DNA of 64,000 nucleotides from Rhodothermaceae bacterium. GTDB taxonomy: Bacteria; Bacteroidota; Rhodothermia; Rhodothermales; Bin80. The notes beneath the pieces were generated by a model. The model saw only the letters and a program-made list of their open reading frames with translations. It ran no database searches and was not told the DNA's origin. The first letter of the stretch is position 1; each line of letters begins with the position of its first letter. Where the stretch lies: the NCBI GenBank assembly GCA_009838195.1, contig VXSC01000011.1, positions 62,001 to 126,000 of the forward strand, given 5' to 3'. The position numbers were made by a program, and so were the translations under genes. Of this stretch, positions 23,093 through 47,108 are shown in pieces.

Positions 23093-23459
23093 TTACTCGT
23101 GTAAGGAATTTTCTCTGAGCTAGCAACCTGCGGATAAAGTCGGGGGTTCCAGAATTCTAGAATTGATGGGATATATTTCCAAGAAGCACCTATGTTCAGA
23201 TTCAACAGTGCAAATTCATGGCATTAGTAAACGAAGACTGCCACTCAAAAAGAGTCGCGATCTGGACTGATTTGGAGTACACAGGGGCACGAAAAATAGA
23301 AGTCTCTTCGTAACTTTGTGTGACGTAGAGATCTTTTGTATCTTACGCCACATGGAAGGCGCGGTATTGTGTGCACTTGCCTGATTGCCTATCCAGAGTC
23401 CCTTCCTGTACTTCAGAGAACTGAACAACCATGAGTACCCGATAAAGACGTAATCCAAT
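23093..23459. other. Intergenic region upstream of the STAS gene
   Basis: This 367-base gap lies between divergent genes. It contains a 12-bp palindrome AATTCTAGAATT (23153-23164) and a TAACTTTG box near 23312, which fits the Bacteroidota -7 consensus TAnnTTTG, without a convincing partner box. No small gene is supported. Confidence 0.35.
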
Positions 23460-23807
23460 ATGAGAATTGACATCAAATGGCAGCGCGAGGGAGACATCGC
23501 AATCGCGGCTCTGCTTGGCCGTATTGACAGCAGTAACAGCAACCACCTCTTGACCATGCTAGAGGAAGGTATTGAGCCTAGTGATCGTGCTCTGCTACTG
23601 GACTTCGAAAAAGTATCGTTTATTAGCAGTGCTGGCCTTCGCGTCTGCTTAATCCTCGCCAAAAAGCTCTCCGGCGAGGGAAAGGCGTTCGAAATATGCT
23701 CGCTTTCCGACCTCAACCGTGAGGTTGTTGCGGTGAGCGGCTTTGATGAATTGATCCCAGTGCGCGATGCGACTGAGGATGCACTGTCATCCTTGCAGAG
23801 TTCCTAA
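23460..23807 (+). CDS. STAS-domain protein (anti-sigma factor antagonist-like)
   Basis: This encodes 115 residues consisting of a single STAS domain: the N-terminal strand MRIDIKWQREGDIAIAALLGRIDSSNS, LLLDFEKVSFISSAGLRVCL and a C-terminal helix. The phosphorylatable serine position is Ser56 (ISSAGLR). Such proteins bind anti-sigma kinases when dephosphorylated. No kinase or sigma factor is next to it, and the GAF-SpoIIE phosphatase at 16901 is the only potential partner in the window. A short hairpin with T-run follows (23822-23840), so it is probably a separate transcript from the polyketide genes. Confidence 0.85.
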   Translation: MRIDIKWQREGDIAIAALLGRIDSSNSNHLLTMLEEGIEPSDRALLLDFEKVSFISSAGLRVCLILAKKLSGEGKAFEICSLSDLNREVVAVSGFDELIPVRDATEDALSSLQSS

Positions 23808-23866: not shown

Positions 23867-24151
23867 ATGACTGACAACAACGACCGAATCATCACCGTCA
23901 AGAATTCACTTGACATGAACATCCTCGGGGACAATATTTCTGATATCACCGACTTCGCCGTGGAAAAGTACGAGTTTCGTCATGACGCAACCCTCTCCAG
24001 TGAGACCCGGGATGCAGCTGTTAAAGAGACTCGAGAAGCCCTTTGGGAAATGGTTGAGAAGCTCAAGTTGAAGCGCCAACAGATCCTGAAGACGTTCTTT
24101 GAAAAGGCCGATGAGACGGTGAATCGAGTCGTCAGCGACATGCAGGAATAG
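23867..24151 (+). CDS. Uncharacterised 94-residue helical protein upstream of the polyketide synthase
   Basis: The protein has no signal or membrane segment. From residue ~45 it is a continuous charged helix (TRDAAVKETREALWEMVEKLKLKRQQ and on to VNRVVSDMQE), probably coiled-coil. No family is recognised. It ends 99 bases before the polyketide synthase start on the same strand. A hairpin GCAACC/GGTTGC (24152-24169) follows the stop. A docking or chaperone-like partner for the synthase is conceivable from position alone, with no motif to support it. It may equally belong with the STAS gene. Confidence 0.55.
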   Translation: MTDNNDRIITVKNSLDMNILGDNISDITDFAVEKYEFRHDATLSSETRDAAVKETREALWEMVEKLKLKRQQILKTFFEKADETVNRVVSDMQE

Positions 24152-24250: not shown

Positions 24251-27200
24251 ATGTCACATATACCGCGAGATTCTCCAGTTGCGATTGTGGCGTACGGTTA
24301 CCGGATGCCCGGGGGGATCCGTACCGACTCGGACTTCTGGCAACTATTGTCCGAGCGCGAGATCGTCCGGGAACCCATCATTGACAGGTATGGCAGAGGG
24401 TATCGTCCAATCGGCCAATTTTCTGGCCCAGGACGGTTTGCCAGCCCGTATGAAGGCCTCATTCGCGAGGATGGCGAGAAGCTGATCGACCCCAAGCTCT
24501 TCGGCCTGTCACAGGACGAGATGCTTTTTATGGATCCCCAGATACGCATGCTGCTGGGTTGTTCCTGGGAAACTTTTGAGCGTGCTGGCTGGGATTTTCA
24601 TTCGCTGCGCAACAGCTCCACTGGTGTTTTCATTGGCGCACAGGTGCCGGCCGTGGCCAGCTGGCGACCAATGCACGGCGCGGGACCATTCGATGTCACT
24701 ACGATCAGTCTCGCGATGCTCGCCAATCGCATTTCCTACCATTTTAATCTGATGGGGCCGTCCGCTACATACTGCACGGCCTGCTCCGCAAGTATCACTG
24801 CGCTTCATGCAGCAATATCCGCGATCCGATCTGGCGACTGTAAACAAGCACTTGTGGGATCGGTGAATTACCTGGGCACCTCTCGTCTCAGTGCCTCCTT
24901 CAATGCCCTGGGGGTCATCAGCCCTGACGGCAAGTGCCACTCTTTTGATGCCGACGCGAACGGCTATATCCGTTCGGAGGGGGCGTTCATCTTCGCTCTC
25001 AAACCTCTACAGGAAGCCGAAAATGACGGCGACCACATCCACGCCGTCATTGAAGCAACTTCCGTTAACGCGGCGGGGGCAGCTGACGGGAGTAGTGGAC
25101 TGGCACAGGGACGCTATATCACCGCACCCACCCGTCATGCACAGGTAGACCTGATGCGCACCGCCTGTGCTCGTGCGGGGCGCACACCCGAAGAGTTCGA
25201 TTATGTCGAAGCGCATGCGACGGGAACTGTCGTCGGTGATCGTATAGAGGGCAATGCAATCATTGAGGCCTTCGGTGGGATTGACCGCGGCGTGCCACTG
25301 CGGATTTCGAGCGTGAAGAGCAACTTGGGGCATATGGAAGCGGCGGCGTTTCATTGCGCTCTACTAAAAATCATCCTGATGATGCAGAGGCGTACTTTTG
25401 CGCCTACGTCAAAGAACTATGTCGTTCCGAACCCCGAGATAAATTTTGAAAACGGTGCTGTGCAGGTGCAGACTGTCTGCGAGGCGTTCCCGGAGCGACC
25501 AGTCGTGGTCGGCATCAACTCGTTTGGGTTCGGCGGTGCCAACGGACATTGCGTGATTCGAGAATACCAACCATCACGCCCGCGCATCTGGTCATCCGAT
25601 CTGTCCCCGGATGGGGGGAAGATGATCCCACTCTCGGCGCGCACCAATGAAGCACTCACGCGAAGCGCACGACAGTTGCGGGAAATGCTCGCAGAAGATG
25701 ACACCGACCTCTATACAATCGCAGGCAACCTTTGTCGGCGCCGTACACATTTTGCAACGCGAACAGCTTTTGCAGTACATGATCGCAACGAGCTACTGGC
25801 ATCCCTAGACGAGTTCATTGAGAACGCATCAGGCGGAACAACCGTTAGGGAAGGGGAACAGCGAATCGCGATGATGTTTGCAGGACAGGGCACCCAATGG
25901 TCCGGTTGTGGCCGGGGACTGTATGACGCTGACCCCGTTTTCCGTAGAGTGATTGACGCAGTTGAGGGCCATTGGAAGGAATTTTCAGATGTCTCGCTAC
26001 GCGACATTTGCTTCAACGCTCCCCAAGAAGAACTCGACGAGGTTCGATTTGCCCAGCCGGCAATCTTTATGATCCAGTGCGCCCTCTTTGAGCTTTTTAA
26101 GACCTGGGGGGTACATCCAGAATGCGTCATCGGGCATAGTTCAGGCGAGGTCGCTGCTGCCTATGCCTCTGGCATGCTGTCGCTTGCAGAGGCAACGCAA
26201 TTGGTCTACCACCGCGCTACCCTTCAGCAGTGTGTGGCCGACTCGGGTCGAATGCTCGCCATCGGCTTGGATCTCTCAGGCGTGGAAGAACTGCTTGATT
26301 CGCTCGGTATCGCTTTTCGGCCTGACGAGAACCGGCCAACCCAAGTGGAGATCGCCTGCGAGAATGCACCAGCAAGTGTAGTCATTTGCGGCAAGGAAGC
26401 AAAGCTGAGACCGATCATGGCGGAACTGGATCGCCGGAATCTGCAAAACCAGTTGCTTGCAGGCAATATCGCGTTCCACTCCTCCGCCATGGACCCCATC
26501 CACGATGATGTGCAGCAAGCTCTGTCTTTTTTGGATAAGAGCACATTTGATGGCAGCATCCCTTTCATTTCTTCCGTGACCGGCAAGCAAACGGAGCGTC
26601 TAGATGGAGCGTACTGGTGGACAAATATTCGGAGACCCGTGCAGTTTGCCCAAGGGGTCAGCACAATTATGCGTGATTTCAAGCCCGATATATTTCTTGA
26701 GATCTCCCCGCACGGTGCACTTCAATCGGCAGTCAGTCAATGTCTCGAACAGGCATCGCCAATTCCGGTCCGCATTCCAAGCCTCTATCGAAATTCGGAT
26801 GATCGGCTCGGTTTCCAACAGGCGCTGGCTTCGCTCTTCAAATCCGGCGTGGCTCTGGATTTCGCAGCTCAGTACCCGCGGCCCAAGTCCATTTCCCATC
26901 TACTTCCTGGACATCCTCGGGACAGGCAGGCGGCGATCAACATCCTCAGCGATGACGAATTCTTCGTCCAACAAGGCCAATACTCTCATGGACCACTGAT
27001 TGGGCACAGAGTACCGAGCGACCACCTTCTCTTCGAATCCCGGCTCTCCGTGAAGGACTTCCCCTGGTTAGCAGACCACCGCGTGCACCATGCTGCGATC
27101 ATGCCTGCTGCCGGCTATATCGAACTGATCCTTCAGGCCTTCGAAGGCGTTTCTGTTCACTTCGAAGTGCTTGAATTCCTTCAGCCGTGCCCGATTCCCA

Positions 27201-30200
27201 GGACACCTGTTCGGCTCCAGACTGCCCTGCGACCGGTCTCCAATACCCGGGACGAGTTTGCGTTCACAATCTCGTCCCGATCATACGATGTCAACGCTAC
27301 CAGCGAGGTCCACTGCCGTGGACGAGTAAAGCTGAGTAATCCAGACCACCCCATTGGTGTTCCGGCCCGGCTTGAGGATATTGACCGATCCTCATGTGAG
27401 ACTGTATTCGCGAAGCAGAGTGATTTCTACGAACGGATTGAGGCAGTCCTCAGCGAGACCTTCCAGTATGGGCCACACTTCCAGACCATACAGCTATTTG
27501 AGTTACAACCCGAATCTAGAGCTTTGATCGTTGACATTGAAATGGACCAGGAGCTCTGGACGACGGGGCAGCAAGAGGGGTATGTAGGATGTCCACCACT
27601 GCTGGATGGAGGACTCCAGATCTTCCTGTCACACCTGTTGACGGCTTCACATTTATTTGCGATCCCGCAGAGAGCCGAGAGAACAACATTTCTGCGTCCG
27701 CCCACCGGCCCACAGATTACATGTTATGTGACCAGGCCCAGTGAAGACTGGATGGATGCGAACGAGCGAGGCCAGTACTCAGTGCAGCGCGGAGAACGGG
27801 CCGCCGGTGCAATCAGTTTCTATGACCGTACTACAGGAGACCTCATCCTCCACATTGATCAATACGTCTATTTCACCTCCAATCCGCGCTGGAATGATCT
27901 ATTGAACAGCAAGCATGAAATCGCCTGGCAACCGAAATTCATCCATGAAGACCTGTCTTACCTTGACAGACTCCCCACAGGGGAGATCGACCCCGCCGCG
28001 TTGATCGTTGCCCTAGAAAAGTCAGAGGGTACACAAGCATACAGCTGCCATGTGGCCGAGTTTGCCGGATCACGGGAACCCGATCAAACTATCCTATCCA
28101 AGTGTCTGGATTATCTAACGAGTTCTGATGCTCGGTCCGAGTTCTGGCTCCTCAGCGATAATGAGGAAACGACCCGAGCCCACTTTGATGCCTTCAGCCA
28201 ACGGGATGCCGCGCTTCGCTTTCAATGTCTTGATCCGGAGGCCGCACCCCCAATGGATAACGGTCTTCTTCGCCCCGGCGGCGCGGAAATCGTGTTTTTG
28301 CACGGACCGGACGACCTGCCCAGCCCCGACGGCTGGCGGTTCCTGCGTCAGTTGGTTGTCAACGGCGGGCTAGTGCTGATCTGCCACGATGAAGATGCCG
28401 TAGTCAAGCCGGATGAAGAGTGGTCAATTGTTAGATCCGGCCCAGCTTGCACCCTGCTGCAAGCACCATGCACCCACATAGGCGAAGAGGCAGGCGATCC
28501 AATTCCAGGCCCACATTGGGTACTGGGAGAGCCAAACAGTTGGGCATCGGAGTGGATTTCTCTTCTGGACGCACCCGATACGGTGCAGCCAATCCCGCAT
28601 GAGGCAGTCATCCGTGGGCAATTCGACTCCGTCCCGGCATGGTCAGAGGTGGCTGACGTCCTTGCAATTGACTTCTTCTGTGGTTCCGACCCGAGTGATC
28701 CGACCGGCCAGAGGGTAACTGCGCAGTTGATCGCATTCGTGCAGGCACTAGTATCCGCTCGGTTGGCAAATGCAAATTGTCTGTGTCAACTCACCGTGAT
28801 CACCCAACGCGCAGCCTTTGATGTGCAGCATCCACGGGGATCTGCCCTGTGGGGGGCAATACGCAGTATGGCCATGGAAGTCGGCGACGAAGCAAAGCTC
28901 GATTTCCGCCTAGTTGACCTCGGTGGATTGGATGATCTAAAGACCCTAAGCTGGCTAGCTCGCAACGACTTGCGTGAGCGGGAACTGGCGGTCCGAGAGA
29001 ACCGCTTATGGGTACCACGAATTGCCAGTATTAGAGAGCGATATTCCCATGTGACGGCGGATAGCGATGCAGTATACCGCCTCACACTAGATAATCCGGG
29101 CCAGATTGCCGGGCTCGAGATGAAAACGTACAGCCTCCCTGCCCTCGGACCAAACGATGTGGAAGTTGATGTCGAAGCAGCAGCTCTCAACTTCCGCGAC
29201 GTAATGGTCACCCTGGGCCTACTGCCCGCATTGGCTTATGAGCGCTCGGCGCTCGGGCACCAGGTTGGCATGGAAGGCAGTGGAACCATTCGGCGGATCG
29301 GGGCGCAGGTACGGCACTGCTCAGTTGGTGACCAAGTCGCGTTTATTGCAGGTGGTTGCATCGCCAACCGTGTGGTGATCCCCGAATACCTCGTCTTTGC
29401 CAAACCCAATGGGCTCAACATGGAGGAAGCTGCATCTAGCTTGTCGGTATATGTTACAGCCTACTATTCTCTCATCTACCTGGCCCGCCTTCGGAAGAAT
29501 CAACGCGTGCTCATCCACTCCGCCATGGGTGGGGTCGGCCACGCGGCGATGTCAATCGCCAAACATGTTGGTGCACAGATCTACACCTCAGCCGGTAGCG
29601 AAACCAAGCGCAAACAGCTATTGGCAATGGGGGCGCAGGAAGCCTTTGATTCTCATAGCTATGACTGGTATGAAGACCTTATGATGGCAACCGATGGGGA
29701 GGGAATAGATGTCGTGCTGAATTCGCTGGCAGGGCGCCATATTGAGCTATGCCTGCAAGCACTTCGCCCCGGCGGCTGGCATTGCGAGATTGGCAAAACC
29801 GATATTTATGCCGACAATCTCCTCCGAATGCGCATGTTCCGCAAGAACCTTCGCTTCGCGGCTATTGATGTGGACCGCCTGATGCTTGACGACCCCCGGC
29901 TAACGCGTGAGCTCTCTAAAACCTGCATGGACCTACTGGATCAGGGTACCCTTTCCCCGCTCCCGGTCACTACGTTCCCTTACAGGGACTACGGAAAGGC
30001 CTTGCGTTTGATGACAACCGGGCAACATCAGGGCAAGTTGGTCTTAAAGGCCCCGCAGAACTCCGCAGATCCCGGATACCCCATCTCGGACATCCGACCA
30101 CTCTTTGACGAGGATGCAACCTATCTTGTAACCGGTGGACTGGGCGGTTTTGGGCTCCGCTTGATCTCTTACCTTGTGGCATCCGGCGCGCGGCACTTGA

Positions 30201-31348
30201 CTTTACTTGACCGTGATCCTCAGCGTCGCCGTGATGCGGAATGGGTTCGTCGCTCAAGTGCACTTGTCTACATGGATACCGAGTGTGAGATTGAAATCAT
30301 CTCTGGAGACGTCGCGATTGAAGCCGAGGTGCAACGCTGTGTCCAACAGATCAAGCGACCGTTGAAGGGTGTGTTTCATCTGGCCGGTGCGTTGGATGAT
30401 CGTTTGCTTGACGACATGACAATAGAATCTCTGCAGAGTGTCTTTGCACCCAAAGCTTCCGGTGCACTGTACCTCCATAATGCCACAGCCGACCACTCCC
30501 TTGATTACTTCGTCCTTTTCTCGTCCACGGCTTCGATGCTAGGCAATCCGGGGCAGATCAACTACAGTGCAGCCAACGGTTTTCTGGATGGACTGGCCAT
30601 TGCCCGCCACCAACAGGGTCTGCCCTGTTTGACCTACAACATGCCTGCTGTCGCTGATGCCGGTATGGCTGCACGCAGTCTCCCGGTGCTCCGAATGATG
30701 CGGGCAATCGGTATACCACCGGTAAGTTCCGATCTTGCGATCGCAAATCTGGATTACGCGTTACGTGCAATGACGGACCGCCCCCATCTCGTTACATCGC
30801 TCTTTGAGCGACCGACATGGACCGTCAACTTCCCAGATTACATGCGGATCGGGCGTGTTATGCACAATCATGATGCATTTGAAGCCGCCTCCGACGATGA
30901 ACTTACTCTCGAGAGGGTTGTGGAGCAGATCGCTGCCAAAGTCGCGGAGTTGTGTGGTTATGAAGAAGGCGAGGTGGACGAGCCATTGTCAAGCTTTGGA
31001 CTGACGTCTATTTCGGTCGCCGAGCTCGGGACCTTCATCCAGTCTGAATTCAACTACCGTGTGAGCGCTCTCGAACTCATGACTACGGCCTCATCCCTAT
31101 CACTGGCACAGGGTATCATCGATGGCAAGAAAGATGCTACCCGGGATGAGAGTGAACTAGGTGATCCGACATCCCAAACTGTTTCCGAGGCTTCTTGGCC
31201 ACGGGCCCCGCGTGTTCCCTCCAGTTTTGCGAACACCCTAGAGGATCACTTGCCCACGAAGGCTTCTCAGGCCTCTGACAATGGCTCCAGTCCCATCCCT
31301 TCATTAAAGGACTCAGCCCATATAGACTCATTGGAAGAGGTCTCATAG
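24251..31348 (+). CDS. Single-module highly reducing type I polyketide synthase
   Basis: The 2365-residue multidomain enzyme reads KS-AT-DH-pseudoKR-ER-KR-ACP. KS (residues ~10-430) has Cys178 (TACSAS), His322 (EAHATGT) and His361 (KSNLGHMEA). AT (~538-860) has Ser630 (GHSSGE) and an IAFH motif closer to malonyl (HAFH) than methylmalonyl enzymes. DH (~890-1180) has His943 and Asp1119 (LLDGG), but the Gly of HxxxGxxxxP is His. Residues ~1180-1610 lack a methyltransferase glycine motif and end in the structural pseudo-KR pattern (GSALWGAIRSMAME). ER (~1614-1934) has an AMGGVG NADPH loop. KR (~1955-2190) has TGGLGGFG, Tyr2105 and a B-type LDD motif. ACP carries Ser2253 (FGLTSIS). A Ser/Pro-rich tail of ~75 residues follows. 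There is no thioesterase; the downstream reductase-sulfotransferase probably releases the product. No phosphopantetheinyl transferase is seen nearby. Confidence 0.96.
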   Translation: MSHIPRDSPVAIVAYGYRMPGGIRTDSDFWQLLSEREIVREPIIDRYGRGYRPIGQFSGPGRFASPYEGLIREDGEKLIDPKLFGLSQDEMLFMDPQIRMLLGCSWETFERAGWDFHSLRNSSTGVFIGAQVPAVASWRPMHGAGPFDVTTISLAMLANRISYHFNLMGPSATYCTACSASITALHAAISAIRSGDCKQALVGSVNYLGTSRLSASFNALGVISPDGKCHSFDADANGYIRSEGAFIFALKPLQEAENDGDHIHAVIEATSVNAAGAADGSSGLAQGRYITAPTRHAQVDLMRTACARAGRTPEEFDYVEAHATGTVVGDRIEGNAIIEAFGGIDRGVPLRISSVKSNLGHMEAAAFHCALLKIILMMQRRTFAPTSKNYVVPNPEINFENGAVQVQTVCEAFPERPVVVGINSFGFGGANGHCVIREYQPSRPRIWSSDLSPDGGKMIPLSARTNEALTRSARQLREMLAEDDTDLYTIAGNLCRRRTHFATRTAFAVHDRNELLASLDEFIENASGGTTVREGEQRIAMMFAGQGTQWSGCGRGLYDADPVFRRVIDAVEGHWKEFSDVSLRDICFNAPQEELDEVRFAQPAIFMIQCALFELFKTWGVHPECVIGHSSGEVAAAYASGMLSLAEATQLVYHRATLQQCVADSGRMLAIGLDLSGVEELLDSLGIAFRPDENRPTQVEIACENAPASVVICGKEAKLRPIMAELDRRNLQNQLLAGNIAFHSSAMDPIHDDVQQALSFLDKSTFDGSIPFISSVTGKQTERLDGAYWWTNIRRPVQFAQGVSTIMRDFKPDIFLEISPHGALQSAVSQCLEQASPIPVRIPSLYRNSDDRLGFQQALASLFKSGVALDFAAQYPRPKSISHLLPGHPRDRQAAINILSDDEFFVQQGQYSHGPLIGHRVPSDHLLFESRLSVKDFPWLADHRVHHAAIMPAAGYIELILQAFEGVSVHFEVLEFLQPCPIPRTPVRLQTALRPVSNTRDEFAFTISSRSYDVNATSEVHCRGRVKLSNPDHPIGVPARLEDIDRSSCETVFAKQSDFYERIEAVLSETFQYGPHFQTIQLFELQPESRALIVDIEMDQELWTTGQQEGYVGCPPLLDGGLQIFLSHLLTASHLFAIPQRAERTTFLRPPTGPQITCYVTRPSEDWMDANERGQYSVQRGERAAGAISFYDRTTGDLILHIDQYVYFTSNPRWNDLLNSKHEIAWQPKFIHEDLSYLDRLPTGEIDPAALIVALEKSEGTQAYSCHVAEFAGSREPDQTILSKCLDYLTSSDARSEFWLLSDNEETTRAHFDAFSQRDAALRFQCLDPEAAPPMDNGLLRPGGAEIVFLHGPDDLPSPDGWRFLRQLVVNGGLVLICHDEDAVVKPDEEWSIVRSGPACTLLQAPCTHIGEEAGDPIPGPHWVLGEPNSWASEWISLLDAPDTVQPIPHEAVIRGQFDSVPAWSEVADVLAIDFFCGSDPSDPTGQRVTAQLIAFVQALVSARLANANCLCQLTVITQRAAFDVQHPRGSALWGAIRSMAMEVGDEAKLDFRLVDLGGLDDLKTLSWLARNDLRERELAVRENRLWVPRIASIRERYSHVTADSDAVYRLTLDNPGQIAGLEMKTYSLPALGPNDVEVDVEAAALNFRDVMVTLGLLPALAYERSALGHQVGMEGSGTIRRIGAQVRHCSVGDQVAFIAGGCIANRVVIPEYLVFAKPNGLNMEEAASSLSVYVTAYYSLIYLARLRKNQRVLIHSAMGGVGHAAMSIAKHVGAQIYTSAGSETKRKQLLAMGAQEAFDSHSYDWYEDLMMATDGEGIDVVLNSLAGRHIELCLQALRPGGWHCEIGKTDIYADNLLRMRMFRKNLRFAAIDVDRLMLDDPRLTRELSKTCMDLLDQGTLSPLPVTTFPYRDYGKALRLMTTGQHQGKLVLKAPQNSADPGYPISDIRPLFDEDATYLVTGGLGGFGLRLISYLVASGARHLTLLDRDPQRRRDAEWVRRSSALVYMDTECEIEIISGDVAIEAEVQRCVQQIKRPLKGVFHLAGALDDRLLDDMTIESLQSVFAPKASGALYLHNATADHSLDYFVLFSSTASMLGNPGQINYSAANGFLDGLAIARHQQGLPCLTYNMPAVADAGMAARSLPVLRMMRAIGIPPVSSDLAIANLDYALRAMTDRPHLVTSLFERPTWTVNFPDYMRIGRVMHNHDAFEAASDDELTLERVVEQIAAKVAELCGYEEGEVDEPLSSFGLTSISVAELGTFIQSEFNYRVSALELMTTASSLSLAQGIIDGKKDATRDESELGDPTSQTVSEASWPRAPRVPSSFANTLEDHLPTKASQASDNGSSPIPSLKDSAHIDSLEEVS

Positions 31349-31350
31349 CC

Positions 31351-33105
31351 ATGCCGAATACGCTCCTCATTTATCCAAAGCATCCCCCCACATACTGGGG
31401 AAATGAATTTTCCTTGGATCTACTGGGCATCCGAGCGGCATTTCCTCCACTCGGCCTGCTTACAGTCGCCGCAATGTTTCCACCCCGGTACGACCTCCGT
31501 TTGGTGGATTTGAATGTCACTCCACTGAGAGACATGGATCTGGAATGGGCGGATCTGGCCTTCACATCGAGTATGATCACACAACGCCCATCACTTGACC
31601 AGATCATCGAGCGATGTAACCGTGCACAGGTTCCCGTCATCGCTGGTGGACCGCACCCCACCACTTTTCATGAAGAGATGGAGGGGGTTGCCCATTTTGT
31701 GCTTGATGAGGTTGAGGAGACCTTCCAGGATTTCCTTCACGACTTGGAAAAAGGAACCGCAAAGCGGATTTATCGGGAACCGAGAAAGCCGGATGTAACC
31801 CTGACTCCCCTTCCCCGCTTTGACCTGATCAACATGAACGACTACTATTCAATGAGTCTTCAGTTTTCGCGGGGATGTCCCTTTGATTGTGAGTTCTGCG
31901 ACATCACTAAGCTGTACGGCCGCGTGTCCCGAACCAAATCGCCTGAACAAATGGTTGCCGAGTTTGACCATCTGTTCGAACTTGGATGGCGCGGACCTCT
32001 GTTCCTAGTTGACGATAATTTCATTGGCAATAAGCGCGAAGTTACACGGCTTCTCCCCGTGATAGCCGAATGGCAACAGGAGCGTGGCCACCCCTACAGC
32101 CTGTCTACCGAGGCGAGTGTCAATCTCGTTCGGATGAGCGACTTGATGGATGTCATGATTGCGGCGGGCTTTGACACCGTCTTCTTGGGCATTGAAACGC
32201 CCAACCCGAAGGCTCTTGAGAAGATGAAGAAGCCTCAGAACATCAACATGCGCGACGACAACTACCTGTTCAAGTCTGTGCGAAAGATTCAACAGAAGGG
32301 GATGCAGGTACAGGGCGGCTTCATCCTAGGCCTCGACGAAGATGATGAGAGTGCCTTTGATGCTCAGATCGAATTTATACAGGAGACTGGAATCCCGATT
32401 GCACTCGTTGGGCTGTTGACCGCACTCAAGGGAACCAACCTCTGGGCACGTCTAGAGCGCGAGGACCGGCTGCTTGACACACCTATTGAAATTAATGCGA
32501 CCTCCCTGAACTTCAGGCCGGAAATGGATCCCAAAACACTGGTTGAGGGATATCTGCGTGTCATTGGGACCATATACGACTCGACGCTGGAAAACTATTT
32601 TGATCGATGCCTGACCTTGCTGGAAAACCTCAATCCGGTACCACATCTCCATAAACCTGTGAGCCAACATGCACTGTATGCGGGCATTATGGGAATCCGG
32701 CAGCGCCTGACACCCCAGCAGTTACCGGCCTTTTCGCGGTATATTGCCAAGGTTTCTAAAGATCACCCTCGCCTGTTGCCCCTTGCGATTCGGCTGGCAG
32801 CTACAGGCCACCACTGTGAGAAGTTCTCCCGTCAGCAGACCATCATCCGCGAGTTCAAGGAGTATCTAACCTCAGAGTTGACAAGAATGAACGAAGACAT
32901 GTCGCAGCGCAAGTCAGCACCGGAGGCAGCAGACAAGCTCAAGCGGGAAGCGTTGCACCGAATCAATGCGCGTAAGAAAGCTATCCCCGAGGAATTCCGC
33001 TACACGGGGGACGGTATTACTGAATCTGTTTCGGATTTTCAACTTGCATTAGACACCATATTCGACGGGACTCCCGTAAACGGCAATCTTCCGGTTCTTA
33101 ACTAA
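31351..33105 (+). CDS. B12-binding radical SAM enzyme (DUF4070-type)
   Basis: This 584-residue protein starts 2 bases after the polyketide synthase stop, so translation is coupled. Residues 1-~150 form a cobalamin-binding fold (PPLGLLTVAAMFPP, VIAGGPHPTTF). The radical SAM core follows with the iron-sulfur ligands Cys176, Cys180 and Cys183 (CPFDCEFC), LVDDNFIGNK, FLGIETPN and GFILGLDEDD, and the C-terminal third resembles DUF4070. Relatives of this layout include lipid and hopanoid methylases such as HpnR. Methylation or another radical modification of the polyketide chain is the natural inference, but the reaction cannot be read from the sequence. Confidence 0.9.
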   Translation: MPNTLLIYPKHPPTYWGNEFSLDLLGIRAAFPPLGLLTVAAMFPPRYDLRLVDLNVTPLRDMDLEWADLAFTSSMITQRPSLDQIIERCNRAQVPVIAGGPHPTTFHEEMEGVAHFVLDEVEETFQDFLHDLEKGTAKRIYREPRKPDVTLTPLPRFDLINMNDYYSMSLQFSRGCPFDCEFCDITKLYGRVSRTKSPEQMVAEFDHLFELGWRGPLFLVDDNFIGNKREVTRLLPVIAEWQQERGHPYSLSTEASVNLVRMSDLMDVMIAAGFDTVFLGIETPNPKALEKMKKPQNINMRDDNYLFKSVRKIQQKGMQVQGGFILGLDEDDESAFDAQIEFIQETGIPIALVGLLTALKGTNLWARLEREDRLLDTPIEINATSLNFRPEMDPKTLVEGYLRVIGTIYDSTLENYFDRCLTLLENLNPVPHLHKPVSQHALYAGIMGIRQRLTPQQLPAFSRYIAKVSKDHPRLLPLAIRLAATGHHCEKFSRQQTIIREFKEYLTSELTRMNEDMSQRKSAPEAADKLKREALHRINARKKAIPEEFRYTGDGITESVSDFQLALDTIFDGTPVNGNLPVLN

Positions 33106-33129
33106 ATGCTGACACCAGAATAGCCGTAT

Positions 33130-35634
33130 ATGCCTGAATTGAATACTTTGCACGCGGAGGTCCCGCCACTCACGGGAACCCTGCCGCCCCAATGTCGACA
33201 GGATCTTGATTCGCTACGGCGATTCATTAACCAAACGACCAGCTATTCATCCATAGACGCCCCTGTCAATCCCTCGGATTTTCGGGAAGTTCTGCTTACA
33301 GGGGCGACCGGATTCCTCGGCCGCTTTTTGCTGAGAGATCTTTTGCGTCGAAACCCCGACCTGACGGTTACCTGTATCGTTCGGGCGGATCATTCGCAAC
33401 ACGCTTTCTCTCGAATCCAAGCCGCTTTCGAAGAGGCGGAAATCTGGGAGGACGAATTTGCTCCGCGCATACGTGCAATGGCGGGAGACGTCCATCTCCC
33501 GAGTTTCGGCCTGGAGCCGTCCCAATTCGCGGATTTCTACCAGCGGATTGACGCCGTGTACCACCTTGCCGCGAGCCTGAGCGTAGCGACTCCCTACGTC
33601 GCTCTACGCAAGATCAATGTGTTCAGCATCCGCAGCGTACTCGAACTGTGCCTAACGACGCGCCTGAAACACGTCTTCTTCGCGTCGACCATGGGGGTTT
33701 TCCCCGAATACTTCTGTGGTTTCGCGAACGAGTACTCCGGCAGCCGTGTCACGCACCAGATGCAGCCGGACATCGCGAGCATGAAGCGTGCCTTTCCTCT
33801 CGGCCTGCTCGGGTATCCGTGGACCAAGGTGGTGGTCGAGCAGGCCCTGCTTCATGCGGCCCGGACTGGGGTGCCGGTAGCTCTATTCCGCCTGCCACAC
33901 ACGAATGTCGCGAGTACCGGTTTCGGCAATGCCGACGATGTCGCGGTGCGAACGGTAGCCGCGGTAGTGGACTCGGGACAGATGCCGGAGGGGTTCACGC
34001 TGCAATGGAGCCAGGCGGCAGTTGATGTCGTCGCTGACACCATGGCGGCTATCTCGATGAATCCCGATCGGCGCTTCACGATCTATCACTACTCCGAAGA
34101 TCCACCCCTAGGACACGAGATGCAGCTTGCCGACTTCGGACTGTACTATAAGACCGTGCCCTACGATGCTTGGAAGCGGGCCTGTCTGGCTCGGGGAGAG
34201 CGGTCACCCCTCCACGGATTCTGGAATCTGATCGATCACGGCGCGCCCTACTGGTTCAGCGGGGACGCGACCGCTCCGTCCCATCGCGTCTGCAGCCGTG
34301 CCTTGCAGGCCGATTGTCTGGACCCGATTCCGTGGCCGAGCGCGTACACCATGCTCCGGCGTTCCCTCGACTGGTTGCGGGCGCATCGTGAGAAATGGCC
34401 GTACCGCATACCCGAGAGCCGTCTCGACTACGACCAACTCGTGCGTCGAGCCGAATCGTTCGCGCGCGAATACGATGTCCCCTTCGGCGTGGCATTCCCC
34501 GCCTGGAAACTCGAGGGACTCAGGCAGCTCGTGCAGGCGGTGAACGCCCCGGAGGCCGGTGTTCGGACCGAAAGACACGACTATATCGCCTTCGATCTCA
34601 CCCGCCGCTTGCGCAACAATGCGTCCTTGGAAGCCGAGCGCCGCCGCTGCCCAGAGATTGCGGAACAGGACATCAGGCGGCCGGTCTTCATCGTTGGAAT
34701 CAACCGGACCGGCACAACCCTTCTGCACCGCCTGATGTCTCGTGACCCGAGGTTTTGGACGCTGCGCGGTTACGAGTATGTCGAGCCTGTCCCGGCGGGC
34801 GGCAACTACGCCATTCCGGCCGACTCGGCCGAAGATCCGCGGCGAGCCTTTGCGGAAGAACTCCTGAACGCGTCGGGAATCGTTGACATGTTCAAGGGAG
34901 TGCATCATTTCGACGTGGATGAACCAGAAGAGGACCTTGGGCTACTCAGAATGGGGTTTGCCGCTTGGGGCGCGACCGTTTGGTTCGACATCCCGGACTT
35001 CGCTCGCTGGCTTGCCTGCAGGGACATGTCGGAGACCTACGCCTTTCACCACCGCGCATTGCAGAACTACACGCATCAGCGGAGAAGCGACGGGGAGGGA
35101 CAGTGGGTACTGAAGGCGCCCTTTCACCTTTTCGAACTGGAAGCGCTAATTGCGACGTACCCCGATGCCCTGTTCATTCAGACTCATCGTGAGCCCGCTC
35201 AGTTCATGGGATCCTGGTGCAGCCTCGTCGACCGGGTCCGCAATCTCTCCTGCCAGCCCCGCCAGTCTGAAGATCTCGGGAAGGAACAACTCGAATTCAT
35301 GCGCCGCATGCTTGACAGCATGGTCAAGTTCCGCACGAACCACCCCGAACTGGAAGATCGCTGGTTGGACATCAGTTTCTACGACCTGGTCCAGGCTCCT
35401 ATGGACATGGTTGCCCATATTTACAACCGTTTCGGGTGGTCGCTGGAGGAGGAGGCCGTGGCCGCCATGGACGCCTGGCTCGAAGCACAGGCCGCTCAGC
35501 GGCGAAGCGAAAAACGGCACAAATACGAGCTTGCCGACTTTGGCCTGACGCGTGACAAGGTCGATGCGGCCTTCTCGCACTATCGTGATTTCCTCTCAAG
35601 CAGTGGGATCCGATCTTCCATGCTTTTGAAATAG
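33130..35634 (+). CDS. Thioester reductase-sulfotransferase fusion protein
   Basis: Residues ~50-390 are a thioester-reductase type extended short-chain dehydrogenase: NADPH loop TGATGFLG (57-64), YHLAAS, and the catalytic pair Tyr229/Lys233 (YPWTK). Such domains release carrier-protein thioesters as aldehydes or alcohols. Residues ~430-834 are a Sulfotransfer_3-type PAPS-dependent sulfotransferase: 5'-phosphosulfate loop RTGTTLLHRL (Arg526-), 3'-phosphate site THREPAQFMGSW (Arg687, Ser695), and the C-terminal KYELADFGL shared with the separate sulfotransferase at 45844. No carrier or adenylation domain is present. Base composition is visibly GC-richer than the synthase (39 of 60 bases in the line from 34441). 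The predicted role is to release the synthase product and sulfate the resulting hydroxyl. Confidence 0.9.
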   Translation: MPELNTLHAEVPPLTGTLPPQCRQDLDSLRRFINQTTSYSSIDAPVNPSDFREVLLTGATGFLGRFLLRDLLRRNPDLTVTCIVRADHSQHAFSRIQAAFEEAEIWEDEFAPRIRAMAGDVHLPSFGLEPSQFADFYQRIDAVYHLAASLSVATPYVALRKINVFSIRSVLELCLTTRLKHVFFASTMGVFPEYFCGFANEYSGSRVTHQMQPDIASMKRAFPLGLLGYPWTKVVVEQALLHAARTGVPVALFRLPHTNVASTGFGNADDVAVRTVAAVVDSGQMPEGFTLQWSQAAVDVVADTMAAISMNPDRRFTIYHYSEDPPLGHEMQLADFGLYYKTVPYDAWKRACLARGERSPLHGFWNLIDHGAPYWFSGDATAPSHRVCSRALQADCLDPIPWPSAYTMLRRSLDWLRAHREKWPYRIPESRLDYDQLVRRAESFAREYDVPFGVAFPAWKLEGLRQLVQAVNAPEAGVRTERHDYIAFDLTRRLRNNASLEAERRRCPEIAEQDIRRPVFIVGINRTGTTLLHRLMSRDPRFWTLRGYEYVEPVPAGGNYAIPADSAEDPRRAFAEELLNASGIVDMFKGVHHFDVDEPEEDLGLLRMGFAAWGATVWFDIPDFARWLACRDMSETYAFHHRALQNYTHQRRSDGEGQWVLKAPFHLFELEALIATYPDALFIQTHREPAQFMGSWCSLVDRVRNLSCQPRQSEDLGKEQLEFMRRMLDSMVKFRTNHPELEDRWLDISFYDLVQAPMDMVAHIYNRFGWSLEEEAVAAMDAWLEAQAAQRRSEKRHKYELADFGLTRDKVDAAFSHYRDFLSSSGIRSSMLLK

Positions 35635-35746: not shown

Positions 35747-36664
35747 ATGGCTGACAAACTAAGCTGGAGCCGTGAACCTATGTCATTTTCCAAACGCCAC
35801 GGCTATGAGCCACTTCCTGAATGTATGCGCCTAGAGTACCTGTCCGAGCAGGCAAAAACCGCGGTATACAACATCATTGCTGATATCGTGTTAGTCTCAG
35901 GTAACTGGGCAGGTATGGAAAGCTTCCCTGCACCTAGAATGTGTCGTCGCGCCATAGCATCGTGCCTCAACAAAAATATACTTGAAGTCCAAGTCTCAAG
36001 GGATGAAATTTTAGACGAGCTGCGATCCATTGTGTACGAGTTGTCATTCAATAAGGCGCTGGATCTACTGGAGTACATGGCCAACTATCAGGATGATCAA
36101 ATCAGATTTGGGGGATCTCAGGAATTAAATGTTCGACTTTCACGATTCTCCCAAGACATCAACAACGCCTTTGACGAACACGGAGTAGCATACGTGTTTG
36201 ATACCTCTAATAGGCCTTACCATATCTGGCCAAGAACTTCAATGGAACAGGGCGTGACCATTCAAAATGCTGTGGCTACATTGAAACATCATGAACTATC
36301 TTCACCTGTTACACACCTGCGAGATGCGGCATCTCATCTGGATTCACGGCAATACTCCGATGCAATTACAGACAGTATACACGCAGTTGAGTCTGTCGTG
36401 CGTATTTTCGATCCAGACAATTGTCGGAAGCTCAGCGATGCCGTAAACTCTCTTAGGAGACGGGGCGTGCTCAAGCACCAAGCCCTTGCCGAAGCAATCA
36501 AATCACTTTACGGCTATACTAGCGACGAAAAAGGCATTCGAAAAGCGTTGGTCTTTGATCCGAAAGCCAATGTTGACATTAATGACGCTATGTTTATGTT
36601 TGGGGCATGTGCATCTTTGGCAGCTTACTTGGCGAATATCTGTCACCCGGAGGGGGAAAGCTAA
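35747..36664 (+). CDS. AbiJ-like protein (AbiJ-NTD4 plus HEPN-like C-terminus)
   Basis: The N-terminal region starting MSFSKRHGYEP matches the AbiJ-NTD4 pattern (FSxRxGY near the start), found in single-gene abortive-infection defence proteins. The C-terminal half (residues ~195-300, VTHLRDAASHLDSRQYSDAITDSIHAVESV ending in CASLAAYLANI) resembles the HEPN-like Abi C-terminal domain. The family's conserved GIRH element reads GIRK here, so the usual catalytic His of a HEPN RNase is missing. ATG 35780 would start directly at the conserved motif and is an alternative to 35747. It is AT-richer than the polyketide genes upstream and followed by AT-rich inverted repeats. A phage-defence role is inferred from the family. 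Confidence 0.7.
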   Translation: MADKLSWSREPMSFSKRHGYEPLPECMRLEYLSEQAKTAVYNIIADIVLVSGNWAGMESFPAPRMCRRAIASCLNKNILEVQVSRDEILDELRSIVYELSFNKALDLLEYMANYQDDQIRFGGSQELNVRLSRFSQDINNAFDEHGVAYVFDTSNRPYHIWPRTSMEQGVTIQNAVATLKHHELSSPVTHLRDAASHLDSRQYSDAITDSIHAVESVVRIFDPDNCRKLSDAVNSLRRRGVLKHQALAEAIKSLYGYTSDEKGIRKALVFDPKANVDINDAMFMFGACASLAAYLANICHPEGES

Positions 36665-43339: not shown

Positions 43340-43786
43340 CTATATTGCTTCCGCTTGGATTTTCAATCCCTTGGCCACATCATTGAAACCGCGCCGCATA
43401 TAGCCGGCAAAACAGCAGTACACGATTGGCGCGAGTAATCCCGTCAATTTGTCAATGTTGTAATAGCGACAACTTGTATTGTCAACATGTTCGAGGTGCT
43501 GCTCTCGTTTTGCGAACAGTAGCCAGTGAGCTCCGAATTTCTTTTCCCAAGCAATAAGACGGGGTTTTTCGAAAGCGCAGAGACGTTCGGTGATTCCAAA
43601 CTTGATGGGCCCCATCCTTACCAGAAGATTTATGGGAGATCCAATCGCAAAATCTGTCTGGATCTTTGACGTAAACGGATTCCATTCGCCATATTTTCGA
43701 GTATCAGTCAGAACAGTCCAAACTACCTCGTTGGAGGCGTTGATGTCAACTGGATTGGTACGAATTATAAATTCCCGAGAGATCAT
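43340..43786 (-). CDS. SRPBCC (polyketide cyclase/lipid-binding fold) protein
   Basis: The start at ATG 43786 gives MISREFIIRTNPVDINASNEVVWTVLTD, the typical START-like/SRPBCC beginning with I-x-A-x-x-x-V-W-x-x-L-x-D. The frame remains open further upstream, but that part overlaps the preceding gene and has no family similarity. Later elements (YGEWNPFTSKIQ, ERLCAFEKPRLIAWEKK, a C-terminal long helix) fit the 148-residue fold, which binds hydrophobic ligands in a deep pocket. It begins 10 bases after the preceding short-chain dehydrogenase and is the last gene of the sulfotransferase operon. The ligand may be the lipid acted on by the neighbours, which is inference. Confidence 0.75.
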   Translation of the reverse strand: MISREFIIRTNPVDINASNEVVWTVLTDTRKYGEWNPFTSKIQTDFAIGSPINLLVRMGPIKFGITERLCAFEKPRLIAWEKKFGAHWLLFAKREQHLEHVDNTSCRYYNIDKLTGLLAPIVYCCFAGYMRRGFNDVAKGLKIQAEAI

Positions 43787-43796
43787 GAGTTTGCAG

Positions 43797-44774
43797 TCAG
43801 GTGACAGTCTTGAGCCAGGCTTCCGACTGGTTCCACAGCATTTTCGCGGCGGACATCTGTCTGGCCTGTTCGCTTGGTCTGGCAATCTTGCAGCGCTCGT
43901 AGTAACATCCGCCATGTAGCGCAGGAGTGCTAGAGCACATTACCACGGTTTGTGCCCCATATTTCCGGTGCAACAATACCAATGATGTCATGGCAGAACT
44001 CATGCGGTTCAAGGTGCTGCCGATTCGTCCAGTCATCGGCTTCATTTGTGTAAGGTTCGTGTGAACGGACCCAGGATGTAGTGCTACGGATCGCAGATTG
44101 AATTCCTTCGAAAACTGTCGGTTGATCTCGACTGAAAGATGGATGAGTGCCAGTTTCGACGTCCCGTACGCATTCCAGGAATGGTAGCGTTTCGTACTAT
44201 CGAATAAGTCCTCATTACTCACGCTGTCATGTAGATGAGAGGATACGTTTATCACCCGAGCATCGCCGTCTTCCAAGCCACTCTGTTTTAGACATGGGAG
44301 CAGCAGATTCGTCAGATGGAAGGGTCCTAAATAGTTGGTTCTCCAGTGAATTTCGAAGCCATCCTTGGTCAGGGGCGGCTTTCGTCGTGGACGGAAGATA
44401 TTCTTGTGGATACCCGCGTTGTTAACCAAAACATGAAGCTTTCCGTCATACTCGCGAAGAAACCAGGTTGCAAAACTGGAAGTGCTCTTCACATCACACA
44501 GGTCAAGCGTTCTGGCCATGATGTTGCCATCGGCACCTGTGCGTTGTAAATCATTCTTAAGGCACGTTTCGGTCGTTTCTGCGTCATGCAGACTGGTAAC
44601 GATAACGTGTGCACCCCAACTCGCAAGGATCTTGGCAGTCTCATACCCAATGGAATTGGGAGATGCGCCCGTCACAATGACCGTCCGACCGGACATATCA
44701 ACACGTTCTGCCATCGGCTTGCGCATGCATAGCAACCAAAGGTGACGAACCGACTTGGCAAATGTATGGGGCAT
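43797..44774 (-). CDS. Short-chain dehydrogenase/reductase (operon copy 1)
   Basis: The 325-residue protein has a Rossmann start VIVTGASPNSIGYETAKIL (an altered TGxxxGIG loop with extra residues), VLVNNAGI, VINVSSH and the catalytic YGTSK. The N-terminal 25 residues precede the fold, and the C-terminal extension is Cys/Arg-rich. It is closest in pattern to retinol-dehydrogenase/WW-oxidoreductase-like SDRs that act on lipid alcohols or ketones. It lies 22 bases downstream of the second SDR gene on the same strand. The substrate is unknown. Confidence 0.88.
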   Translation of the reverse strand: MPHTFAKSVRHLWLLCMRKPMAERVDMSGRTVIVTGASPNSIGYETAKILASWGAHVIVTSLHDAETTETCLKNDLQRTGADGNIMARTLDLCDVKSTSSFATWFLREYDGKLHVLVNNAGIHKNIFRPRRKPPLTKDGFEIHWRTNYLGPFHLTNLLLPCLKQSGLEDGDARVINVSSHLHDSVSNEDLFDSTKRYHSWNAYGTSKLALIHLSVEINRQFSKEFNLRSVALHPGSVHTNLTQMKPMTGRIGSTLNRMSSAMTSLVLLHRKYGAQTVVMCSSTPALHGGCYYERCKIARPSEQARQMSAAKMLWNQSEAWLKTVT

Positions 44775-44796
44775 TTTCTGCAGTGATAATATGGCG

Positions 44797-45792
44797 CTAG
44801 AGCTTTGCCATCAGTTCCGCACTGGCTTCCCATAGCCTGGAGCCATTCTCTGGATCGGAGGCACTTGGCGAAACAGATTTCCGTTGCATCAGGTGCAAAT
44901 ACATCCCCGTGCTATAGCCCGCTTCTTCGGAACAGCACAGATAAATTGCCGGCTTTACAGCCTGTTCTGGAGATTGCAAGAGATACCGCAGAAGAGGCTT
45001 GACTACGGGCTTGAGCGGTGTCGGGGTATCCCTTGCAATGTTCGAAGCAATACCTCCGGGACACATTGAATGTACCGCGACTTCGATACTGTCGCCTTGA
45101 TTCAGGCGTCGGGAGAGCTCGGTGGCGTACGTACACTGAAGTAGTTTACTGATGCCGTAATGTCTGAGACTATCCTTCGTTTTGTAATCTTTGAACGTAC
45201 CCAAATGATCAAACTCAATGACATGGGAGGATCGGTGTGCCTCGGATGCGACAAATATAATTCGCGGTGTCTTTCCAGGGTGTCTGGATGGACGAATCAC
45301 CCCATCCTTCAACCACCGATCAATCAGTATACGTGAAGAGAGGAAGTGTACAGTAAACATCATCTCAAATCCTTGTGGGGATTTTCTGGCTCTGGGAGGC
45401 ATCAGTCCAGCATTCATCAGTGCAATATCAATGCGGATTCGGCGAGATGCCATCAAGTCACAAAGGTGATGGACGGATTTGACGTCTGCCAGGTCAACTT
45501 CCATCAATTCTATGTTCGAAGATCCAGACAGCCTCTGTATTTCCTGACAAATTCCTCCATGCCCGGGCCGACAGGCTAAAATCATATTTCCTCCGCGCCG
45601 CGCAAGTTCAACCGCAGCAGCTTTCCCAAGGCCGCTATTGGCTCCGGTCACCAGACAGGTCCTGCCGTCAATTCGGATATCTTCGGGAACCATGGTAACT
45701 TCAGCGTGCTTCGGCTGCCTGAGATCTCGGACAGCAGCAACCATCGCACTGAAGGGCGTGCCATCTCCAACTAATTTGGATTTTTTCTTCAC
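44797..45792 (-). CDS. Short-chain dehydrogenase/reductase (operon copy 2)
   Basis: This 331-residue SDR has CLVTGANSGLGKAAAVELARRG (residues ~46-67), the NAG motif (LMNAGLMPP), IIFVASE and the catalytic YGISK. Like its neighbour it belongs to the retinol-dehydrogenase-like branch but is clearly a different subfamily, since similarity between the two is limited to the core motifs. It lies 51 bases after the sulfotransferase gene on the same strand. Two SDRs in one operon could oxidise and reduce the same lipid at different positions, or interconvert a hydroxyl needed for sulfation; this is inference. Confidence 0.88.
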   Translation of the reverse strand: MKKKSKLVGDGTPFSAMVAAVRDLRQPKHAEVTMVPEDIRIDGRTCLVTGANSGLGKAAAVELARRGGNMILACRPGHGGICQEIQRLSGSSNIELMEVDLADVKSVHHLCDLMASRRIRIDIALMNAGLMPPRARKSPQGFEMMFTVHFLSSRILIDRWLKDGVIRPSRHPGKTPRIIFVASEAHRSSHVIEFDHLGTFKDYKTKDSLRHYGISKLLQCTYATELSRRLNQGDSIEVAVHSMCPGGIASNIARDTPTPLKPVVKPLLRYLLQSPEQAVKPAIYLCCSEEAGYSTGMYLHLMQRKSVSPSASDPENGSRLWEASAELMAKL

Positions 45793-45843
45793 GGAGTCCT
45801 CAATTTTGACCTGAACTGCTCGTACAAGATCAAGTCAGATGAT

Positions 45844-47106
45844 TCATTCAAACGGGATCGTGTATTTCTCACGGTAGCCAGAAAAATGTTCTTCGATGAC
45901 CTCCTCGCTCAACCCAAAATCATTCAAGCTATAGGAATGTCGCCCAAAACGATTTTGCGGATTGGCCTTGATATACTGTCCTGCCTGCCGCACTGCTTCG
46001 TCATCAAAATTAATTCCGATCCACTCATAGATCTCCCGAAGCTGGGTTACGGGATCCGCAATCAAGTCGTAATAGGACACATCCATGAACCGGTCGGTCT
46101 CTTCACCGGATCGAACCATTTCGGTGACTTCAATCATTCTGCGTATTTTCCGGCACCAGTGTCGCGCAATTTCTTCGGGATCCACCTGATCACTAAAAAT
46201 ACCTCGACCATGTGCAACCATACTACAAAATGACGGCAAAGCCTTTCGTGGATCGCGGTGGGTCAGTACAATTTTCGCATCTGGGAAAGTATTCAGAAAT
46301 ATATCCAAATACTCCATGTGATTTGGAGTCTTCAGCACCCATTGACTACCCGGACGCTGCCAACACAGAACTTTCAGTACCCCGCGAAGAAATTCGTAGG
46401 CCTGGGTATGGTCCTGATCCTCCAGCCAACGCGAATACGATGGAACGTGCATCGTCGCCTCCGGTGATTGACTCATAAAACTCAGGTCCAACAACATAAC
46501 ATCTTCCTCCGGCTCACGACGGCTGATCGGGTGTATCGACTTGAATTGTGGTGACAAATAGGAGATTGCCTGATGCGCCATGAATGAGTAAAACTTGCGG
46601 CTGAAAGTCCCACGCCTGTTCATGTTACCCGCCGGGACTGGTTCAAGCAGTTCTCCCCCAGAAATGCCACGGATGGCAGGATTGGTATTCAATAAGCGTT
46701 GGAGTAGTGTCGTGCCAGTACGCTGCAGCCCAGTAACAAGAATGATTTTGCCAAGATCAACCTCATTTATTTCAGGGTGCTTTCTGAGTAGATCCCTGAT
46801 CCGAAAACGATGAACCAACGCGCGGGTGAGTCGAGATTTTTGTACTAGCCTGCCGGTGGCAGTCAGACGAGCTTCGTCGTTCATTGATTTGACCAGCACT
46901 TCCAGGGCCTCGAAAAATTTACTATCGCCCAAATCTTCCAGTCCCGTTATTCGTTTCGCCTGCTCTACAAGTACCTCGGCCTCCAAATATCCTGGCGGGC
47001 CAAATCTCCCACTCAGACCGTTATAAACTTTGATAAAGAACGGGCGATAGGGACGCTCATAGTCCGTTGTTGTTACGAAGTCGCTCTTGCCCATCTCTTG
47101 CCACAC
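45844..47106 (-). CDS. PAPS-dependent sulfotransferase (Sulfotransfer_3 type)
   Basis: The 420-residue enzyme has a helical N-terminal region (residues 1-110), the 5'-phosphosulfate loop RTGTTLLQRL (Arg129-), LLEPVPAGN, the 3'-phosphate-binding THRDPRKALPSF, and a C-terminal SYSLNDFGLSEE. It is homologous to the sulfotransferase half of the fusion protein at 33130 (shared RTGTTLL, EPVPAG, and the C-terminal DFGL element). Sulfo group transfer from PAPS to a hydroxyl, probably on a lipid or isoprenoid, follows from the family. The first codon is GTG, 2 bases after the DUF1214 stop; an ATG four codons in (47094) is an alternative. Confidence 0.9.
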   Translation of the reverse strand: MWQEMGKSDFVTTTDYERPYRPFFIKVYNGLSGRFGPPGYLEAEVLVEQAKRITGLEDLGDSKFFEALEVLVKSMNDEARLTATGRLVQKSRLTRALVHRFRIRDLLRKHPEINEVDLGKIILVTGLQRTGTTLLQRLLNTNPAIRGISGGELLEPVPAGNMNRRGTFSRKFYSFMAHQAISYLSPQFKSIHPISRREPEEDVMLLDLSFMSQSPEATMHVPSYSRWLEDQDHTQAYEFLRGVLKVLCWQRPGSQWVLKTPNHMEYLDIFLNTFPDAKIVLTHRDPRKALPSFCSMVAHGRGIFSDQVDPEEIARHWCRKIRRMIEVTEMVRSGEETDRFMDVSYYDLIADPVTQLREIYEWIGINFDDEAVRQAGQYIKANPQNRFGRHSYSLNDFGLSEEVIEEHFSGYREKYTIPFE

Positions 47107-47108
47107 GA

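Follow-up and report, generated by a model that had tools for sequence, protein, structure and literature searches.

The three adjacent genes at positions 24251-35634 of the window (the whole stretch of 64,000 nucleotides that was analysed) raise the question whether a bacterium of the Rhodothermaceae carries an undescribed route to a sulfated polyketide lipid, and which product can be expected from it. All three reading frames lie on the forward strand, are open and have intact core motifs. The first gene (swfA, 24251-31348) encodes a one-module type I polyketide synthase/fatty acid synthase (PKS/FAS) of 2365 aa, presumably iterative and recognized by Pfam domains and signature motifs. After a gap of 2 bases it is followed by swfC (31351-33105), encoding 584 aa with B12-binding, Radical_SAM and DUF4070 domains, and after 24 further bases by swfB (33130-35634), a thioester reductase-sulfotransferase fusion of 834 aa assigned by Pfam and structure model. 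An earlier note on this DNA had described a PKS without thioesterase (TE), a B12 radical SAM enzyme and a reductase-sulfotransferase. This composition was confirmed by Pfam and the reading frames, and the catalytic motifs it claimed are intact and kept across 20-26 homologues. Its list lacked the atypical dehydratase (DH) motif of SwfA, and two small forward-strand genes directly upstream of swfA were overlooked. The statement that no described pathway has exactly this set was wrong; the swf cluster was published by Della Sala et al. in 2013 (PMC3908369), although at the level of a description and without assignment of a product. Because gene content, motifs and order of swf are already published, the three genes add one more member to a known family and do not represent an undescribed pathway.

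The family was defined by swfA with the domains KS-AT-DH-ER-KR-ACP, swfB with reductase and sulfotransferase and swfC with a radical SAM domain, from metagenome fosmids of Plakortis simplex and from a single-cell genome assigned to Poribacteria (PMC3908369). By motifs, sizes, domains and gene order the locus 24251-35634 is assigned as a copy of this cluster. For SwfA the motifs DPQI/DPQV, HATGT, FSGQGTQW, QCALVEL, GHSSGE and IAFH were reported (PMC3908369), and all of these signatures were found, as DPQIR (residues 95-99), HATGT (within EAHATGT, residues 320-326), FAGQGTQW, QCALFEL, GHSSGE and IAFH. FAGQGTQW and QCALFEL each differ from the published motif by one substitution, both known in other members. 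Thus, in the ketosynthase DPQI replaces DPQQ, and HATGT replaces HGTGT. SwfA is a single module without TE, with 2365 aa found and about 2350 aa expected; a reductase-sulfotransferase chain of about 835 aa and a SwfC of about 585 aa with CxxxCxxC are likewise present. The published proteins of PS11G3, PSA11D7 and POR_0547-0550 have 2349-2361, 832-839 and 585 aa, so that the lengths here (2365, 834 and 584 aa) lie within 1-2%. The gene order A-C-B equals that of POR_0547-0550. PS11G3 also carries genes for a STAS protein and a protein of about 92 aa upstream, like the window, whereas PSA11D7 is without the SwfC that is present here. In contrast to the published hosts, the copy described here belongs to the Rhodothermaceae and has a mosaic swfB with a segment probably derived from Gemmatimonadota. 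New are therefore this host, the conservation of the upstream gene pair and the swfB mosaic; swf itself was already known.

Two other systems share features with swf. The symbiont ubiquitous PKS (sup, SupA) is also a one-module PKS/FAS widespread in high-microbial-abundance sponges; published trees place its KS/AT in a clade apart, whereas the motifs checked here are those of SwfA. The coccidian type I FAS resembles swf in its reductive release and contiguous reductase (R) and sulfotransferase (ST) domains (according to PMC3908369), and the R domain of Cryptosporidium CpFAS1 uses acyl thioesters with very long chains as substrates (PMC2995488). It differs in being multimodular and eukaryotic and in having no separate SwfC.

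According to Pfam the domain order of SwfA is KS-AT-DH-(structural region)-ER-KR-ACP. The KS domain (24272-25570) contains DPQIR, TACSAS and HATGT, the AT domain (25874-26851) GHSSGE, IAFH and QCALFEL. These are followed by DH (26993-27775), ER (29084-30049), KR (30116-30655) and ACP (30923-31099), the latter with the phosphopantetheine site GLTSISV. Across 20-26 homologues TACSAS, EAHATGT and KSN[LV]GH, GHSSGE, HSAMGGVG, TGGLGG and GLTSISV are kept. Among the PDB relatives are mycocerosic acid synthase and animal FAS; the plasmid search with the swfA DNA gave no match. The AT was described as malonyl-type, and phosphopantetheinylation of the SwfA ACP was shown (PMC3908369). In the host genome, which has 3.0 Mb and is 99% complete, an Sfp-type phosphopantetheinyl transferase (PPTase) of 272 aa is encoded, which would activate this ACP. 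SwfA would then build a saturated or partly reduced acyl-ACP by iterative condensation of malonyl units and reduction. The DH motif counts against this pathway: His or Arg mostly takes the place of the Gly in HxxxGxxxxP, in this SwfA as well, with the His and Asp retained. Neither a TE nor a methyltransferase domain was detected in SwfA by Pfam; hence, SwfB and SwfC have to supply the release step and any methylation.

SwfB consists of NAD_binding_4 (thioester reductase; R domain 33289-34200) and Sulfotransfer_3 (ST domain 34681-35448, with PAPS motifs). YPW[ST]K, RTGTT and THREPxxxxGSWCS are conserved in 20-26 homologues, and the PAPS-site motifs are thus kept. A model with a pLDDT of 85 matched the terminal R domain of myxalamid synthase with one half, which is the nearest relative both by sequence and by fold, and mycobacterial STF1/STF9 with the other. 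The R domain of myxalamid synthase performs a four-electron reduction to the primary alcohol. R domains may also stop at the aldehyde, and the ST would then act elsewhere. In the full-length SwfB homologues sampled, R and ST stay in one chain in two phyla, which suggests that the product of R is the substrate of ST. The R domain would accordingly release the chain with NADPH, probably as primary alcohol, and the ST domain would transfer sulfate from PAPS to this alcohol, so that an anionic amphiphile, a long-chain and possibly branched alkyl sulfate, would result. That the carboxyl end is turned into a primary sulfate was already proposed by the authors of 2013 (PMC3908369).

Alternatively, the ST could sulfate a beta-hydroxyacyl-ACP as activation, as in curacin CurM and olefin synthases, so that an alkene or another sulfate-free lipid would result. 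In curacin biosynthesis sulfation is known to create a leaving group, and such a step was mentioned for swf (PMC3908369), but this chemistry requires a TE and decarboxylation, while none of the three proteins contains a TE by Pfam, the ST is not followed by one and release falls to the reductase. The closest structures of the ST were STF1/STF9, and no olefin-synthase ST was among the matches. We consider this route very unlikely, and an ST-TE olefination of the CurM/OLS type was rejected. In favour of the alkyl sulfate are the conserved PAPS motifs together with the PAPS synthase (ATP sulfurylase-APS kinase fusion, 570 aa) and the Sfp-type PPTase of the host genome. An swf copy with intact core motifs in a nearly complete genome that also encodes these two enzymes narrows the product hypothesis to this class.

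For SwfC the radical modification of the chain, most likely a C-methylation at an unactivated carbon, is predicted where the gene is present. The CxxxCxxC motif lies at residues 176-183, and CPFDCEFC is found in 20 of the 20 aligned rows. HpnP, MgmA and AprD4 share the B12-binding fold and the radical SAM core with SwfC, but in Foldseek AprD4 and MgmA matched a low-confidence model with a low identity of 16-18%. The dehydratase AprD4 is the top fold match and the second-best PDB sequence match, and the methylase MgmA the other match among solved structures. A non-methylase reaction (dehydration, desaturation, cyclisation or C-C bond formation), by which the lipid would be modified but not methyl-branched, is therefore a possibility to which we give less weight than an even chance, yet clearly more than a marginal one. 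It gains from AprD4 and from the observation that closely similar SwfA proteins go with SwfC of different types (62% and 77-84% identity). On the other hand, MgmA is a methylase, the AprD4 fold match rests on a poor model (pLDDT 59), and in the tree of 2013 SwfC groups with methyltransferases, nearest to HpnP (PMC3908369). The fold comparison was dropped as a means to separate methylase from dehydratase because of this model. Hence, the earlier reading of an iteratively reduced chain, radical methylation, reductive release and sulfation is reasonable and near to the proposal of 2013 (PMC3908369), with methylation kept as a prediction, since a methylase and a dehydratase are both among the closest relatives of solved structure. 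The absence of SwfC from the examined stretches of two loci (L030, L032) indicates that its step is optional or different.

In sum, a sulfated fatty alcohol is the most likely product of this cluster, predicted to be a saturated, perhaps C-methylated primary alkyl sulfate. For the pathway as a whole, from the observed parts through the predicted steps to a long-chain (branched) primary alkyl sulfate, the chance of being correct appears slightly better than even. The product could instead be an envelope lipid, either a membrane sulfolipid or a lipid anchor of a capsule as with WcbR/RkpA, and not a free, secreted alkyl sulfate. This fits with the first annotation of POR_0547/0548 as WcbR-type and with a comparison of the other loci, in which no window gene from outside the swf locus, for example an exporter, was found to recur next to swf. 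However, the wcb assignment was withdrawn (PMC3908369), and no capsule gene block stands next to swf in the window, so that an envelope lipid seems rather improbable. A WcbR/RkpA capsule PKS as the identity of the genes was rejected, since such systems have the motifs HGTGT and DPQQR, which differ from those found here, and adjacent genes for capsule/LPS synthesis and export, of which the window shows no block beside swf.

The literature leaves the alkyl sulfate as a prediction. Expression of the whole cluster in E. coli gave no cluster-specific compound (PMC3908369), which could reflect poor cobalamin supply or oxygen. In the accessible parts of PMC3908369, PMC4245539, PMC9864124, PMC9426513 and of reviews no later product assignment for swf was found. 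The synthesis of methyl-branched fatty acids is ascribed to SwfA in PMC9864124 with reference to the paper of 2013, in the accessible text of which (PMC3908369) no demonstration of this was found. A search for sulfated alcohols in the sponge literature gave nothing usable.

The distribution of the cluster was examined in Rhodothermia and Gemmatimonadota. swfB was detected in 6 of 245 Rhodothermia genomes and in 34 of 395 genomes of the Gemmatimonadota sample. In the extended loci examined swfA adjoins swfB, in the same three layouts as published: A-C-B in the window, L022-L026, L081 and L082, A-B-C in most other Gemmatimonadota loci, and A-B without C within the examined stretch of L030 and L032. 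Loss of synteny in relatives had been named as an argument against the cluster. The swf genes travel together, though patchily, across two phyla, so this argument does not apply. The family is said to be one of two PKS families widespread in sponge microbiomes, and PMC9426513 reported swf-like clusters for MAGs of Nitrospirota, Latescibacterota and Acidobacteriota from sponges. These clusters are scattered over unrelated sponge symbionts; other phyla are named there, whereas Rhodothermia and Gemmatimonadota with evidence for transfer at the gene level are added here. In one further genome of the same genus (G007, L028:8520-15880) the layout is rearranged: swfA is truncated (602 aa), swfB is divergent (38%) and swfC is intact (84%).

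Between the window and the Gemmatimonadota locus L023 the identity amounts to 80% for SwfA, 82% for SwfC and 85% for SwfB. The housekeeping proteins NadE and RNase G of the window share 33-42% with their best long matches in those Gemmatimonadota genomes, but 68% and 71%, respectively, with a genome of the same genus; therefore, the contig belongs to the Rhodothermaceae. With dN of 0.08-0.13 against dS of 0.5-2.1 between the phyla, the genes are under strong purifying selection, a point in favour of the predicted pathway. The dS values towards L023 are 1.9 for swfA, 2.1 for swfC and 0.50 for swfB, and for swfB the value towards the genus-mate L022 (0.60) exceeds that towards L023. Over swfA, swfC and the first approximately 100 codons of swfB, the synonymous third-position identity to the Gemmatimonadota copies tested is about 0.5. 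From about 33,400-33,450 to the end of swfB it is about 0.7-0.8 with all of them, so that an approximate recombination breakpoint was placed at 33400-33450 on the forward strand (change from about 0.5 to about 0.78). Furthermore, the GC3 of swfB is 0.71, compared with 0.53-0.60 in swfA, swfC and other window genes and 0.84 in L023. The SwfB tree places both Rhodothermaceae sequences within Gemmatimonadota (95/95), the SwfA tree outside them. From about 33.4 kb on, swfB thus appears to be of Gemmatimonadota origin and much more recent than swfA and swfC. As the simplest reading, the cluster would have arrived earlier, and a copy from Gemmatimonadota would later have replaced most of swfB. swfC has apparently been exchanged between lineages likewise: L069, L072 and L080 carry a distinct type (62% to the window), and their SwfA nest among carriers of the common type (77-83%).

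The same-genus relative G004 was matched to the record Rhodothermaceae bacterium SB0661_bin_24 by identical swfB coordinates and identity, and the same-genus genome and the Gemmatimonadota copies come from the MAG sets SB0661 and RHO1, which we take to be sponge metagenomes. L022-L024 all stem from bins of a single assembly series (SB0661); the lineages of donor and recipient may thus live in the same sponge.

Upstream of swfA two small genes precede the cluster on the forward strand. The first (23460-23807) encodes a STAS anti-sigma factor antagonist of 115 aa (Pfam STAS 7.5e-12; TIGR00377 with 54.2 bits, above the cut-off). A reading frame on the reverse strand (23216-23716) was rejected as its antisense shadow. 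The second (23867-24151) encodes a protein of 94 aa that is single-copy in the host genome and for which no relative was found in profile searches of Pfam, NCBIfam and PDB. Homologues of the 94-aa protein (21-76% identity) adjoin swf in nearly all loci, STAS homologues in seven (window, L022, L030, L069, L072, L074 and L080). In L030 the STAS domain is fused to the 94-aa protein upstream of swfA (L030:4351-5058), and swfB is followed downstream by a second STAS reading frame whose tail is similar (L030:19550 onwards), which points to a working pair. Table 1 for PS11G3 (PMC3908369) lists ORF18 with 115 aa and ORF19 with 92 aa, the latter matching POR_0546. The STAS gene equals ORF18 in position and length, and the 94-aa protein is the apparent counterpart of ORF19 and POR_0546 by position and size, while according to the text of that paper nothing beyond swfA-C is shared. 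The pair probably regulates the locus or an enzyme of it, possibly by partner switching.

The recent exchange of the release gene across phyla and the conserved small partner gene narrow the hypothesis further and provide concrete targets, namely SwfB, SwfC and the upstream genes. More tentatively, swf could be a mobile, modular lipid unit, with SwfB and SwfC traded individually between phyla inside sponges and the unit switched on by the STAS/94-aa pair. If true, unrelated sponge symbionts would share a new class of branched alkyl sulfates; we regard this extended view as possible and somewhat doubtful.

Some neighbouring and related genes were recorded in addition. Directly 3' of swfB lies a gene for an AbiJ_NTD4-like protein (35747-36664, forward strand), a domain named for a phage-abortive-infection family; in the other loci that were compared it did not turn up next to swf. 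On the reverse strand, 43340-48293 encodes a protein of 394 aa without family, a stand-alone sulfotransferase (33% to the ST half of SwfB), two SDR oxidoreductases and a polyketide-cyclase-like (SRPBCC) protein, possibly for another sulfated metabolite. This block is kept in G004 and also in G008 and G054, which lack swfB, and its sulfotransferase (45844-47106) was therefore rejected as a partner of swf. In L038 (G020) a PKS with 32-34% identity to SwfA adjoins a stand-alone sulfotransferase that shares 30% with the ST of SwfB, a different pairing in the same order. Finally, the genome of the window contains a second type I PKS with long open frames and two acyltransferase domains within about 8 kb (G000:C47:111268-119379; L086, L088).
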